Shown: positions 3,785 to 10,991 of the stretch, piece after piece
How positions within the stretch are numbered: the stretch's first letter is position 1
Layout: the number at the start of each line of letters is the position of its first letter
Source of the DNA: Thiotrichaceae bacterium
GTDB lineage: Bacteria; Pseudomonadota; Gammaproteobacteria; Thiotrichales; Thiotrichaceae
Length of the DNA stretch: 10,991 nucleotides
Reading direction: 5' to 3'
Assembly (NCBI GenBank): GCA_027024625.1
Contig: JALVRY010000357.1
Span: 1-10,991, forward strand
Made by a program: the position numbers and the translations under genes
The notes under the pieces: generated by a model
Told to the model about the DNA's origin: nothing
The model's database searches: none
What the model saw: only the letters and a program-made list of their open reading frames with translations

Positions 3785-4498
3785 ATGATGACTAAAAATA
3801 GAATAAGAATAATTTTACAGTGGGGAAGCTTCCTATGGTTATTGTTTTTACTAACTTCATGTGGGAGTGTTCCGACTTCTGATGAAGAAATAGAGATAAA
3901 GGTATTACCTAAGAAGATAGTTAAGCCAAAAGTGCACAAAGCGCCTGCAAAGTATCTCTCTGGCTTCTATCCACGTTTATCGCTTGCTGCTTTAGAGCGA
4001 ACCAAACATCATGTTGTTTATGATGGTAGTTATAAAAAAATCCCTTACCCTTGGGGAGATGTTGATCCATCCAAGGGGGTCTGCACCGATGTAGTCATTC
4101 GTTCGTATCGAAAGTTAGGTGTTGATTTGCAGCAATTGATCTATGAAGATCGTGTAAAACATCCAAAGGCTTATCCTGATTTGCGTTCTGGCAAAGTAAA
4201 ACCTAATCCAAGTATTGATCATCGACGCGTGAGGAACATGAAACAGTTCTTCAAGAAAAATGCAATGGCAATGCCAATTACAATGAACCCACGTCATTAT
4301 CGCCCAGGTGACTTAGTAACATGGAAACTACCAGGCGACTTTGATCATATTGGGATTGTTGTGAATAGACGTTCACCTAGGGATCCAAATCGCTATATGA
4401 TTGTGCATAATTTAGCAGAAGGTCCAATTATCGAAGATATACTCTTCACTTTTAAAATAGATGGGCATTATCGTTATTTTGGAAATAAAATTTTGTAG
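3785..4498 (+). CDS. DUF1287-family lipoprotein, putative NlpC/P60-like hydrolase
   Basis: A 237-aa protein. The N-terminus (MMTKNRIRI, hydrophobic run, LLTSC) is a lipoprotein signal with the lipidated Cys at residue 26. Either of two adjacent ATGs (3785 or 3788) could start it; the ribosome site is weak. The body carries motifs I associate with DUF1287: YPWGDVDPSKGVCTDVVIRSYRKLGVDLQQ (Cys100), NPSIDHRRVRN, and YRPGDLVTWKLPGDFDHIGIVV (His188). The Cys, then RPGD, then His order is that of NlpC/P60-like cysteine hydrolases, suggesting action on peptidoglycan peptides or a related amide bond; activity is not established from sequence. A second conserved-looking His (H208, IVHNL) follows. Length is in keeping with a single catalytic domain plus a tether. 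It is on the same strand as the preceding NlpC/P60-like gene but separated from it by a terminator. Confidence 0.85.
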   Translation: MMTKNRIRIILQWGSFLWLLFLLTSCGSVPTSDEEIEIKVLPKKIVKPKVHKAPAKYLSGFYPRLSLAALERTKHHVVYDGSYKKIPYPWGDVDPSKGVCTDVVIRSYRKLGVDLQQLIYEDRVKHPKAYPDLRSGKVKPNPSIDHRRVRNMKQFFKKNAMAMPITMNPRHYRPGDLVTWKLPGDFDHIGIVVNRRSPRDPNRYMIVHNLAEGPIIEDILFTFKIDGHYRYFGNKIL

Positions 4499-7154: not shown

Positions 7155-7184
7155 TTGACAGTCGGCTTAACTTAGCACTATTCT
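7155..7184 (+). promoter_or_regulatory. Sigma-70 promoter of the metZ leader
   Basis: A perfect TTGACA (7155-7160) is followed after 18 bases by TATTCT (7179-7184). The predicted start, around 7191, coincides with the 5' edge of the SAM-II aptamer, so the transcript would begin almost exactly with the riboswitch. Confidence 0.8.
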
Positions 7185-7190
7185 AGCCTC

Positions 7191-7247
7191 ATGCGTTGAT
7201 TTGAGTGACAGCTTGCGGACGCAATATAAATACAGCTAAAGCGGGGG
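7191..7247 (+). promoter_or_regulatory. SAM-II (SAM-alpha) riboswitch aptamer
   Basis: The stretch matches the SAM-II pattern. P1 is TGCGT (7192-7196) with ACGCA (7219-7223). TGATTT (7197-7202) follows the P1 5' strand. ATAAAT (7226-7231) and CAGCTAAA (7233-7240) follow the 3' strand. The pseudoknot can be drawn between loop bases GCTT (7211-7214) and AAGC (7239-7242). SAM-II aptamers bind S-adenosylmethionine and repress methionine-synthesis genes, which agrees with metZ immediately downstream. The 3' strand of the aptamer can instead pair with the 5' arm of the downstream terminator (7236-7245 with 7254-7263), giving an antiterminator. Binding has not been tested; recognition rests on conserved bases and context. 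Confidence 0.9.
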
Positions 7248-7252
7248 AAATA

Positions 7253-7286
7253 ACCTGCTTTGGATTTTGTTCAAGCGGGTTTTTTT
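7253..7286 (+). terminator. Riboswitch-controlled intrinsic terminator before metZ
   Basis: ACCTGCTT (7253-7260) pairs with AAGCGGGT (7273-7280, one G-T pair) around a 12-base loop, followed by seven T (7280-7286). The right arm AAGCGGG is identical to aptamer bases 7239-7245, so both compete for the same CCTGCTT. This gives a simple off/on switch: SAM-bound pseudoknot allows the terminator; free aptamer strand forms the antiterminator. Confidence 0.85.
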
Positions 7287-7310
7287 ATGCCCGTAATTTG
7301 AGGATAAAAA

Positions 7311-8492
7311 ATGGATAATCAAAATGACTGGGCATTAGAAACACTTGCCATTCGCACTGGACATAAAAGAACAGCAGAAGCAGAGCATTCTGAGGCTATT
7401 TTCCCAACATCAAGTTATGTTTTTGGTAGTGCAGCCGAAGCAGCGGCTCGCTTTTCGGGTGAAGAACCTGGCAATATTTACTCTCGCCTAAGTAATCCAA
7501 CAGTGCGTTATTTTGAAGAGCGCTTAGCGATGATGGAAGGTGGAGATTCCTGTGTTGCAACATCATCAGGTATGGCTGCAATTATGGCGGTGATGATTGG
7601 TTTATTAAAAGCAGGTGATCATATCGTCTGCTCTCGCTCTATTTTTGGAACAACGACAGTTTTTCTCAATAATTTTATTGCCAAGTTTGGTGTTGATATT
7701 AGCTTTGTTAATTTAACTGATTTGGATGATTGGCAAAATGCACTTCAATCAAATACCCGTTTATTATTCGCAGAAACGCCATCTAATCCATTAAGTGATG
7801 TGGTTGACATAAAAGCATTGGCAGATATTGCACATCAAAATGATAGCTTATTGGTCATTGATAATTGTTTTTGTACGCCTGTACTGCAACGCCCTTTGGA
7901 TTTAGGGGCTGATATTGTTGTGCATTCAGCAACAAAATATCTAGACGGGCAGGGGCGTTGCCTTGGTGGTGCAGTCGTTGGTGACTCTGAAATTGTTGGA
8001 AAAGAGGTATTTGGTGTACTGCGTTCGGGCGGGGTTGCTATGAGTCCATTTAATGCTTGGGTATTTTTAAAAGGGTTGGAGACATTAAGCCTGAGGATGA
8101 AGGCTCATTCTGCATCCGCTTTAGAATTGGCACAATGGTTGGAGCAACATGAGGCTATCGAACGTGTCTATTTTACAGGCCTAGAATCTCACCCTCAGCA
8201 TGCCTTAATTAAGCAGCAGCAAAGTGACTGGGGTGGGATTGTCTCATTTGAAGTCAAGGGAGGAAAACAAGCGGGGTGGCGAGTAGTTGATAATACGCAA
8301 ATGATTTCAATCACTGCAAATTTAGGCGACGCAAAAACAACGATTACCCACCCAGCAACAACAACTCACGGACGTTTAACGCCTGAGCAACGTACAGAAT
8401 CAGGGATTTCGGATGGTTTGATTCGTGTGGCTGTAGGGCTAGAAAATATTGATGATATTAAGGCAGACTTGGAACGGGGATTACTGGCGTAA
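7311..8492 (+). CDS. metZ: O-succinylhomoserine sulfhydrylase
   Basis: A 393-aa PLP enzyme of the Cys/Met metabolism family. MetZ makes homocysteine directly from O-succinylhomoserine and sulfide in the cytoplasm, bypassing cystathionine. Visible family features: IYSRLSNPT (Tyr57 region), SSGMAAI (about 85-91), ETPSNP (155-160), VIDNCFCTP with Asp184 near the PLP ring, and HSATKYLDGQGR with Lys209 as the PLP lysine. The C-terminus has SLGD-like NLGDAKTTITHPATTTH and RVAVGLEN. The lack of strong cystathionine gamma-synthase features and the NCFCTP and DGQGR signatures favour MetZ over MetB or MetY; the acyl group used is inferred. GAGGA (7300-7304) precedes the ATG. Expression is probably controlled by the SAM-II switch in its leader. 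Confidence 0.93.
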   Translation: MDNQNDWALETLAIRTGHKRTAEAEHSEAIFPTSSYVFGSAAEAAARFSGEEPGNIYSRLSNPTVRYFEERLAMMEGGDSCVATSSGMAAIMAVMIGLLKAGDHIVCSRSIFGTTTVFLNNFIAKFGVDISFVNLTDLDDWQNALQSNTRLLFAETPSNPLSDVVDIKALADIAHQNDSLLVIDNCFCTPVLQRPLDLGADIVVHSATKYLDGQGRCLGGAVVGDSEIVGKEVFGVLRSGGVAMSPFNAWVFLKGLETLSLRMKAHSASALELAQWLEQHEAIERVYFTGLESHPQHALIKQQQSDWGGIVSFEVKGGKQAGWRVVDNTQMISITANLGDAKTTITHPATTTHGRLTPEQRTESGISDGLIRVAVGLENIDDIKADLERGLLA

Positions 8493-9750: not shown

Positions 9751-10524
9751 ATGAAAAAACTAAATGTATTACTTCTGTTGTTTGCTGTATTTATGACGAC
9801 TGCAAATGCGAACAGAAATGCGTCTTTATTTCCGCCAACGATGCAGGGTAAGTATCCAACACAAAGACAAGTTTGGCCAACCCCCATGACACCCTACCGT
9901 TGGCCAATGGCGACTATGCCCAATGTGCGTCAAATGCAGCCTCAGCAAAGAATGATGCAGACTATGCCTGCTTTTCCAACTAGGCAAATGATGATTCCAC
10001 AATCTCCATATCCTTACGCGACACCATATCGCGGTATGCCACAATATCCAGCAACAGCATATTCTGTTCCTCCCGTTTTGCGCTTTCCTGCAAACCAGAC
10101 TTTTCAGCAAGCTCGCCCTGTTTATAATATGAATAATGCATATGCTACTCCACAAATACAGCCGCCCCCCTATGCTAGACAGATGTATTTGCCTGCATAC
10201 CCTTTAGCGGCTAATACTGCGCAGCAACAGGCGAGACCTCAGTACCCAATGAAACAACGACCTCCTTTTAAGAAGAAGGTAAAGAAAAAGAAAAAGCCTT
10301 GGGGCGATACACGTTATATTTGGCCTGATTTCTATACTGATGCGACAGGTGATATGTGGGATAGTATGATGAATGCACCTTATGATATGGGGCGTATGCC
10401 AGGTGGTTGGCGTGCACCTTCTTTAAGTTCACCAGACCCTGTAACTGTCGGTGATGCGGTGACTAATCAGTTCCCACCCGTAATTGATGAGATTCCGAAT
10501 TTTATGCCGTTTATGAATAAATAA
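9751..10524 (+). CDS. Secreted Pro/Met/Gln/Tyr-rich protein, uncharacterised
   Basis: A 257-aa protein from the ATG at 9751; an in-frame GTG at 9742 would add three residues and cannot be excluded, since neither has a good ribosome site. Residues 1-20 are a signal peptide (MKKLNVLLLLFAVFMTTANA|N). The mature protein is low-complexity to about residue 173, dominated by Pro, Gln, Met, Tyr and Ala with recurring P-x-Y/M spacing. A basic cluster KKKVKKKKK (about 174-182) separates this from a different, ordered-looking C-terminal module (183-257): PWGDTRYIWPDFY, GDMWDSMMNAPYDMGRMPGGW, then SSPDPVTVGDAVTNQFPP. I do not recognise the family. The composition recalls structural or surface proteins, and loosely the proteins coating sulfur globules, but that is only a resemblance. 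The frame ends at a TAA immediately beside the insertion sequence, so the natural C-terminus may have been altered. Confidence 0.7.
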   Translation: MKKLNVLLLLFAVFMTTANANRNASLFPPTMQGKYPTQRQVWPTPMTPYRWPMATMPNVRQMQPQQRMMQTMPAFPTRQMMIPQSPYPYATPYRGMPQYPATAYSVPPVLRFPANQTFQQARPVYNMNNAYATPQIQPPPYARQMYLPAYPLAANTAQQQARPQYPMKQRPPFKKKVKKKKKPWGDTRYIWPDFYTDATGDMWDSMMNAPYDMGRMPGGWRAPSLSSPDPVTVGDAVTNQFPPVIDEIPNFMPFMNK

Positions 10525-10991
10525 TAGACATCTTTCCTAAATAGAGTCATACCTGAGATTAACCAAAGCAGTAACCAACCGCCAAGTCAGACCATAGTTT
10601 TTGTGCTTTCCTCTGTAAACATCTTTAGCAATTCTGAAAATTTTACAGCGTCTATTAATGTGCTCTATCAATATCCGTTGTTTAGATAAGCTCTTATTGT
10701 AGGCTTTCTCTTCTTTTGTTAGTGGTATCTTTTTCTTTCGCTTTACGGGAAGATTTGAGTTCTTATGGTAAGCCAATAGACCCTGATAGCCCAAATCTGC
10801 CAACAGTTTTGAATTAGAGGCGAGTAATATATTGCTTTCTTTATAAATTCTAAAATCATGGGCTTTGCCTTTAGCGATGACAACGCTATAGATAGCCAAC
10901 GTCAGTACACAAATAACTAATTGAACCTTAATTGTGTGGCGTTTTTTTTCCTGAATAATAGGCTCGTTGACCTTTAACAGGACGCTCTATA
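10525..10991 (-). mobile_element. IS5-family insertion sequence, 3' part, running off the window
   Basis: The element is identified by its transposase, which reads leftward from the window edge and ends at 10537. The boundary is probably within a few bases of 10525: the sequence there (TAGACATCTTTCC) resembles the outer end of IS5-group elements, and the preceding gene stops at 10524. The other end, its inverted repeat and the target duplication lie outside the window, so the exact edge is unproven. Confidence 0.75.
10537..10991 (-). pseudogene. IS5-family transposase, 5'-truncated by window and frameshifted
   Basis: Two minus-strand frames together make one transposase. From the window edge the first frame reads ERPVKGQRAYYSGKK, a standard IS5-type stretch, then stops at a TAA (10928-10930). 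The sequence continues in another frame from RHTIKVQLV through KAHDFRIYKES, LADLGYQG (a catalytic Asp) and RILIEHINRRCKIF (the catalytic Glu), to a TAG at 10537-10539. The switch falls at eight A on the coding strand (10942-10949 as T on the plus strand). Joining them needs a +1 or -2 shift. This could be an inactivating indel or slippage expression, as some IS5-group elements use two overlapping frames. The protein is a DDE transposase that moves the element. An internal TTG at 10899 is not a credible start. Confidence 0.85.

Follow-up and report, generated by a model that had tools for sequence, protein, structure and literature searches.

A predicted SAM-II riboswitch with competing terminator and antiterminator in front of metZ in a Thiotrichaceae bacterium, and its probable gamma- and betaproteobacterial relatives

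The metZ leader and its family membership

The window, a stretch of 10,991 nucleotides from a Thiotrichaceae bacterium (assembly GCA_027024625.1, contig JALVRY010000357.1), carries metZ together with a leader at 7155-7310 on the forward strand, and moaC precedes this leader on the same strand as metZ. Along the leader lie, in order, a sigma-70-like promoter, the P1 stem-loop, a tail with GCUAAAG, a terminator with seven U, GAGG and the ATG. The leader coordinates given in the initial annotation were all found right when the sequence was re-read. The features are the following:

7155-7160, +: -35 box TTGACA, read in the sequence
7179-7184, +: -10 box TATTCT, with an 18-base spacer to TTGACA
7183-7256, +: match to RF00521 (SAM_alpha, the SAM-II aptamer), 32.7 bits, E 2.5e-4
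7189-7248, +: match to model R1 (gamma/beta-type SAM-II aptamers), 69.0 bits, E 7.6e-21
7192-7197, +: P1 5' strand UGCGUU, paired with 7218-7223 by folding
7198-7204, +: conserved loop segment GAUUUGA; GATTT invariant in 46/46 alignment rows, the next G in at least 90%
7213-7216, +: 5' strand of the P2 pseudoknot core, UUGC, invariant in 46/46 rows
7218-7223, +: P1 3' strand GACGCA, paired with 7192-7197 by folding
7225-7233, +: joining segment UAUAAAUAC, in agreement with the consensus
7235-7241, +: GCUAAAG, 3' strand of the P2 core and start of the predicted antiterminator; GCTAAA invariant, the next G in at least 90% (46 rows)
7236-7245, +: predicted antiterminator 5' strand CUAAAGCGGG, 10 pairs with 7254-7263, -14.2 kcal/mol
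7254-7263, +: predicted antiterminator 3' strand CCUGCUUUGG; its 7254-7260 (CCTGCTT) doubles as terminator 5' arm
7252-7281, +: terminator hairpin, -12.4 kcal/mol, with 3' arm AAGCGGG at 7273-7279
7280-7286, +: U tract, read in the sequence
7300-7303, +: GAGG, read in the sequence outside the switching hairpins, a putative Shine-Dalgarno element
7311-8492, +: metZ, O-succinylhomoserine sulfhydrylase, 393 aa (NCBIfam NF006003, 681.9 bits; cut-off, 522)

Several other features of the window are recorded here. The ORFs at 587-1087 and 1488-1928 resemble each other, are lipoprotein-like with a peptidoglycan-binding domain, and belong to a direct duplication (94% over a stretch of 300 nt); between them lies an inverted repeat (1137-1203/1230-1296). 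A DUF1287 protein of unknown function (3785-4498, 191.1 bits) is encoded upstream of htpG, and a fragment-sized DDE transposase (PF13359, 54.7 bits) lies on the reverse strand at 10537-10899, near the contig end.

The promoter TTGACA-18-TATTCT scores 10/12 and, together with a site at 10101, ranks best among the promoter-like sites of the window; such sites were not commoner window-wide than in shuffles (34 versus a mean of 32.4). TTGAC was found 34-49 nt upstream of P1 in 22 of the 24 leaders from the window's order. Transcription is predicted to start at about 7190-7192, which is the P1 edge, and promoter placement at this edge is already described for the SAM-II family in the accessible text of Corbino 2005 (PMC1273637).

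The initial annotation had proposed the Rfam SAM-II model as a check, with a score below threshold counting against the assignment. Formally the outcome is negative, 32.7 bits lying under the curated gathering score of 36, but the E-value is 2.5e-4, the next best family reached only E 0.1, and no more than 31 of 370 class genomes pass the cut-off. Since a sub-threshold score is common to most class relatives, it is read as the mark of an alphaproteobacteria-trained model and not of a false hit. When the window's whole genome was searched, the place had an E-value of 1.4e-5 and the next one scored 14.7 bits (E 1.1); 7183-7256 is the sole credible RF00521 place in the genome. The SAM-V model, which we take to be RF01826, was absent from the six Rfam matches with E ≤ 1 in the window.

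Model R1 comprises 46 aligned aptamers from the class and from named records, none of them from the window's order, with P1 as its sole helix. It gave a single match with E ≤ 1 in the window, at 7189-7248, although the E-values of such a model are rough. All invariant positions of the 46-row alignment are kept in the window, so the SAM-II conserved bases are present, as had been claimed. Among eight named beta-type loci, seven match RF00521 at E ≤ 0.1 and two lie above its cut-off. Since R1 also recovers 9 of the 9 outside-class loci given (of 30) at 36-43 bits, the gamma/beta-type and outside-class loci were treated as one family.

P1 is intact in the window and supported by covariation: in the 46 relatives its pairing is kept in 99.6% of cells, with changes on both sides in three of the five pairs counted. 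The window has UGCGUU/GACGCA where most relatives have GCGCC/GGGCGC, UU/GA replacing CC/GG, so that the pairs are kept through the change. The P2 core UUGC/GCUAA, whose bases we take to be those that bind SAM, is found at 7213-7216/7235-7239, GCUAA pairing with UUGC with U7237 skipped. It is invariant in 46/46 relatives, and therefore covariation cannot show there. A methionine/SAM-synthesis gene downstream, as expected for SAM-II, is provided by metZ.

Competing hairpins in the window and in related leaders

The sequence AAGCGGG occurs twice, at 7239-7245 in the aptamer tail and at 7273-7279 as the 3' arm of the terminator, and CCTGCTT at 7254-7260 is shared between them; this part of the initial annotation can be read directly in the DNA. 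Growing transcripts were folded from 7191 with ViennaRNA, in which neither the pseudoknot nor SAM is modelled, and the folding accordingly shows compatibility with the OFF logic rather than the switch itself. The antiterminator forms from about 7260, ahead of the terminator 3' arm. The probability of its key pair was 1.0 at 7265-7275, 0.999 at 7279 and 0.956 at 7283; in the unbound RNA it was then 0.551 at 7286, 0.219 at 7290 and 0.899 at 7300, from which point the antiterminator wins again. Given that the unbound RNA is about balanced or terminator-favouring at 7286-7290, the decision would rest on timing. As a stand-in for the SAM-bound pseudoknot, UUGC and GCUAAAG were held unpaired, and the terminator then had a probability of 0.995-1.0 from 7279 on. 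The fold comparison suggested in the initial annotation thus came out as anticipated, with the antiterminator first when the pseudoknot is left out and the terminator when the core strands are held. As far as structure prediction goes, the antiterminator occupies the terminator 5' arm and is itself disrupted by the aptamer, which is the arrangement of a transcriptional OFF switch. In this single leader the 10-bp antiterminator is within chance, a helix as long or longer being found in 486 of 5000 dinucleotide shuffles, and support for the predicted helix of the window is comparative.

For this comparison, a strict pattern gave 200 unique aptamer-plus-tail sequences (229 before duplicates were removed). 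The order set holds 24 of 25 clear places, L021 being left out because it ends too early. The class set of 68 was drawn from 30 loci of the RF00521 class scan and 40 regions chosen from the class and phylum scans; six loci gave no entry, including four that were not SAM-II by eye and one duplicate, and some loci gave two. The named set holds 83 of 98 stretches (15 dropped as duplicates, as too short or by the pattern), and the outside-class set, presumably alphaproteobacteria, 25 of 30 loci. Since the sequences are related, leader counts in these sets are not independent events.

Terminators with a folding energy of at most -6 kcal/mol were present in 24/24 order, 52/68 class, 81/83 named and 24/25 outside-class leaders. 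An antiterminator was counted when a helix of at least 6 bp used at least four bases of GCUAAAG and landed on the terminator 5' arm or loop. Such a helix was present in 23/24 order leaders (the exception is L018), 37/68 class leaders and 53/83 named leaders, and in 0/25 outside the class. When all 420 permutations of the 7-mer, GCUAAAG included, were scored in the same way, 4, 2 and 11 reached the observed order, class and named counts (means 4.6, 7.8 and 13.4). Most of the highest-scoring permutations in the order and class sets share four to six consecutive bases with GCUAAAG. The named set is the weakest of the three: 11/420 permutations reach 53, the top one reaches 72, and several top ones share only three consecutive bases. 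An exact CTTTAG or TTTAGC within 75 bases was seen in 16/24, 29/68 and 62/83 leaders of the order, class and named sets and in 0/25 outside the class. Of the 24 terminator-bearing outside-class leaders, 16 have a core-strand helix of at least 6 bp somewhere and none has it over the terminator 5' arm or loop; by eye, the antiterminator work in that group seems to fall to GGCCGG, the outer P2 strand.

The outer part of P2 was examined in the same sets. The window has one such pair, C7209-G7243, and in the 46-row alignment as many as three are partly retained (65.7% of cells). In the core register, 0-3 pairs were found in 24/24 order leaders and 61/68 of the class set; in any register, the longest loop-tail helix has 2-4 pairs in 21/24 order, 59/68 class and 74/83 named leaders. 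The outside-class loci have a loop-tail helix of 5-6 pairs in some register in 25/25 cases, 14 of them in the core register. In the order, the distribution of outer-helix lengths was no better than after re-dealing the tails among leaders, even though the alignment keeps some pairs. The crystallised SAM-II RNA, from the Sargasso Sea, reportedly has a short outer P2 part as well, and for this reason the gamma/beta type is not called a separate class.

Taken together, sequence parts, model-based membership, the downstream gene, the conserved competing pairing and folding in both states, all of it computational evidence, point to a SAM-II riboswitch controlling metZ through transcription termination, a reading to which we assign a probability of roughly 0.87. 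From this evidence we infer SAM binding, termination, the direction of control and the start site. The core of the initial annotation, a SAM-II aptamer followed by mutually exclusive terminator and antiterminator before metZ, is backed by R1, the relatives and the folding; its proposal that the antiterminator 7236-7245/7254-7263 uses the pseudoknot bases and excludes the terminator agrees with the folding and with 23 of the 24 order leaders.

In the mechanism proposed, transcription would start at the P1 edge. At low SAM, CUAAAGCGGG would be free and would pair with CCUGCUUUGG once this is made, before the terminator 3' arm exists; with the antiterminator formed, polymerase would read into metZ. 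At high SAM, the pseudoknot would lock GCUAA to UUGC in the P1 loop, with SAM enclosed, so that the antiterminator could not start. CCUGCUU would then pair with the second AAGCGGG, and transcription would end at the U tract. More SAM would mean less MetZ.

It is also conceivable that the aptamer acts chiefly on translation or RNA stability, the terminator being constitutive and merely trimming transcription. Precedents exist in the excerpts at hand: the structurally best-known SAM-II RNA occludes a ribosome site (PMC10907184), and S. meliloti metA has a terminator on which SAM binding was not predicted to act (PMC9373788). In the window, however, the switching pairs are all upstream of the Shine-Dalgarno-like GAGG (7300), and in 23/24 order leaders the partner of the antiterminator overlaps the terminator 5' arm or loop, so that we hold this route to be improbable. 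Termination control has its own parallel in S. meliloti metZ, where, according to the same excerpt, a SAM-II RNA likewise stands before metZ, a terminator is predicted upon SAM binding and the terminated leader is seen as the sRNA RZ (PMC9373788); that case differs in its alphaproteobacterial host.

Distribution among genomes and target genes

The order sample covered 63 genomes of one family and 8 genera. R1 found 25 places in 24 genomes at E 2.3e-14 or better; at E ≤ 0.01 it matched 29/63 genomes, the extra five being weak or partial matches, and RF00521 was above its cut-off in 8/63. Clear R1 places were absent from two genera (g8, 0/16; g3, 0/6). Two further genomes represent the window's genus (G035 and G036, 97% complete). 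Both have metZ, in one case 89% and in the other 81% identical, with no SAM-II in front, which indicates that the switch is dispensable in the lineage. Neither moaC nor htpG was found in the metZ flanks of about 1500 bases in G036 and G035, and the leader was possibly replaced through rearrangement. We read the patchy occurrence in the order as repeated loss. Two further metZ leaders were inspected: in G012 (L072) extra sequence separates the aptamer stem-loop from the GCTAAAG tail, and the G007 leader (L070) showed only repeats and a terminator-like end but no aptamer. The initial annotation had asked for covariation and conserved alternative pairing in related leaders. P1 covaries and the alternative pairing is kept in 23/24, whereas the P2 core is invariant and the same-genus metZ leaders lack the switch.

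The absence of the switch before metZ in G035 and G036, its interruption in G012 and the sub-threshold Rfam score would also suit a SAM-II element that has decayed and lost its function, with an ordinary terminator behind it. We consider a relic very unlikely, as the core positions are kept, P1 still pairs through a changed pair, and the low score is shared with most matching genomes of the class.

In GTDB, Gammaproteobacteria takes in the betaproteobacteria, and the window's class thus includes them. RF00521 matched 139/370 class genomes at E ≤ 0.01, only 31 of them above the cut-off, and 0/14 controls at E ≤ 0.01. R1 matched 193/370 at E ≤ 0.001, a count to be read with the fact that many R1 rows were drawn from the same genomes and that the controls were scanned with RF00521 only. 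In the phylum sample, 107/397 genomes matched RF00521 and 79 were above the cut-off, the best scorers lying outside the class, as expected of an alphaproteobacteria-trained model. One genome (G291) has multiple SAM-II copies, with 5 RF00521 matches (E ≤ 0.01) and 10 R1 matches (E ≤ 0.001). MetJ was considered as a mutually exclusive regulator and set aside: it occurs in only 4/370 class genomes, none of them among the listed R1 matches, and these are too few.

The initial annotation had thought a gammaproteobacterial host with so explicit a platform unusual, which does not hold in view of the 139 matching class genomes and of publications from 2005 and 2007. In their accessible portions, Corbino 2005 describes SAM-II with terminators and examples from Coxiella, Bordetella and Bacteroides (PMC1273637), Barrick and Breaker 2007 place SAM-II in gammaproteobacteria and name terminators as the platform that it uses most often in alpha- and betaproteobacteria (PMC2258182), and Meyer 2009 reports SAM-II in alpha-, beta- and gammaproteobacteria (PMC2704228). 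SAM-II, its terminators and its gammaproteobacterial presence are already published; the present analysis adds the platform type, the spread below the cut-off and two proposed re-identifications, those of the metXZ element and RF02424. The window shares with RF00521 SAM-II, as far as the latter's description is accessible (PMC1273637), one P1, the loop with GAUUUGA and UUGC, the GCUAA pseudoknot, the P1-edge promoter, a terminator and methionine genes; it differs in scoring below the curated cut-off and in an antiterminator that sits on the core strand GCUAAAG.

Target labels of the 200 unique loci, assigned by short motifs, were metZ/Y 108, metX 51, metA 14, metK 8 and other 19. SAM-II-type leaders before metK, to our knowledge an unusual target for SAM-II, were seen at L085, L099, L105, L149, L150, L162, L164 and L168. 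Tandem SAM-II-like aptamers about 90-130 bases apart occur at L087, L096 and L165 (L146 is doubtful), the first with a terminator and the second seemingly without; L241 has two RF00521 matches 133 bases apart. A terminator-antiterminator attenuator for a non-SAM signal, that is, a specificity variant, has a precedent in the spermidine-sensing variant of a SAM aptamer reported in the available part of PMC10853860, but is scarcely credible here, given loop and core bases equal to the consensus and metZ, metX, metA or metK downstream in 181/200 relatives.

Two previously named elements and the meaning of the finding

The accessible text of Leyn 2014 (PMC4239095) describes a scan with Rfam models in which SAM_alpha was reported only in Rhizobiales and Rhodobacterales, and presents as novel and separate from SAM_alpha a betaproteobacterial 'metXZ' element. 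According to this text, the element has six conserved boxes, of which boxes 1 and 4 are paired, a pseudoknot and a terminator behind, and stands before metXW in 30/35 genomes and before metZ in Methylophilales, Nitrosospira and Thiobacillus.

In our named records, 69 of the 80 listed gave an entry after filtering, with genes identified by short motifs. Entries before metX came from Acidovorax (9), Comamonas (9), Giesbergeria (3), Simplicispira (2), Variovorax (2), Delftia (1) and Diaphorobacter (1), and entries before metZ from Nitrotoga (5), Gallionella-type bacteria (5/6), Nitrosomonadales and Nitrosomonadaceae (2 together), Thiobacillus (1), Thiobacillaceae (1), Sideroxydans (1) and Sulfuriferula (1); the remaining ones were mostly unplaced bins. 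The element fits the SAM-II leaders in topology, hosts and genes (Comamonadaceae genera, Thiobacillus, Gallionella-type), whereas it was named apart from SAM_alpha and is compared here by its description in the accessible text (PMC4239095). The betaproteobacterial metXZ element is very probably the SAM-II riboswitch.

RF02424 ('Burkholderia sRNA Bp2_Cand287_SIPHT', Bp2_287) matched the opposite strand of two SAM-II leaders among the 20 loci given:

L187, 1681-1795, -: RF02424 match, below its cut-off of 70
L140, 274-423, -: RF02424 match, below its cut-off of 70

Turned into its reverse complement, the consensus printed for RF02424 presents P1, GATTTGA, CAGCTTGC and GCTAAA, along with a GC-rich hairpin that has a U tract; it reads GCGTCGATTTGATTTCAGCTTGCGGACGC ... 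GCTAAA, and the other printed part is the GC-rich hairpin with TTTTT. The profile of alignment A1 scored 27.3 bits (E 8.5e-8) against this reverse complement, compared with 4.5 bits for the best of 1000 shuffles, and the forward strand of RF02424 was absent from the best eight rows of the search. In 11 genomes searched with RF02424 at E ≤ 0.01, three matched, none above the cut-off, and of the five places hit only that on G600 contig 26 overlaps a SAM-II leader; the window's genome gave no match at E ≤ 0.01. As 3/14 control genomes match at E ≤ 0.01 too, little weight can be put on the genome matches, and it is the consensus that carries the argument.

In most genomes, homologues of Bp2_287 lie upstream of methionine genes, metX and metZ being named, and a cis-acting element was suggested, as the consulted excerpt of PMC3521395 has it; a 2024 review, in its available part, counts Bp2_287 among expressed sRNAs (PMC10987360). 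RF02424 differs from SAM-II in that its model describes an sRNA of the opposite strand and has a small extra hairpin-like stretch before GCUAAA. It appears to be the SAM-II riboswitch plus terminator, modelled on the wrong strand. In the partial texts that a literature search covered, no statement was found equating the metXZ element or RF02424 with SAM-II.

Considering the comparative data as a whole, the window probably belongs to a distinct gamma/beta type of SAM-II. This type would serve as the principal methionine riboswitch of the class, present in about half of the genomes sampled; its outer P2 would be reduced and its antiterminator placed directly on GCUAAAG, the SAM-binding strand. 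The metXZ element and RF02424 (on the wrong strand) would be this same riboswitch. The results suggest that an alpha-trained model used at its cut-off hides most gamma- and betaproteobacterial SAM-II, which is a possible reason why the metXZ element and RF02424 received separate names. The finding bears on the statement, in the accessible text of PMC12452182, that only 10% of Pseudomonadota riboswitches have terminators. In the window, ligand binding and antitermination would compete for identical bases, a compact design.
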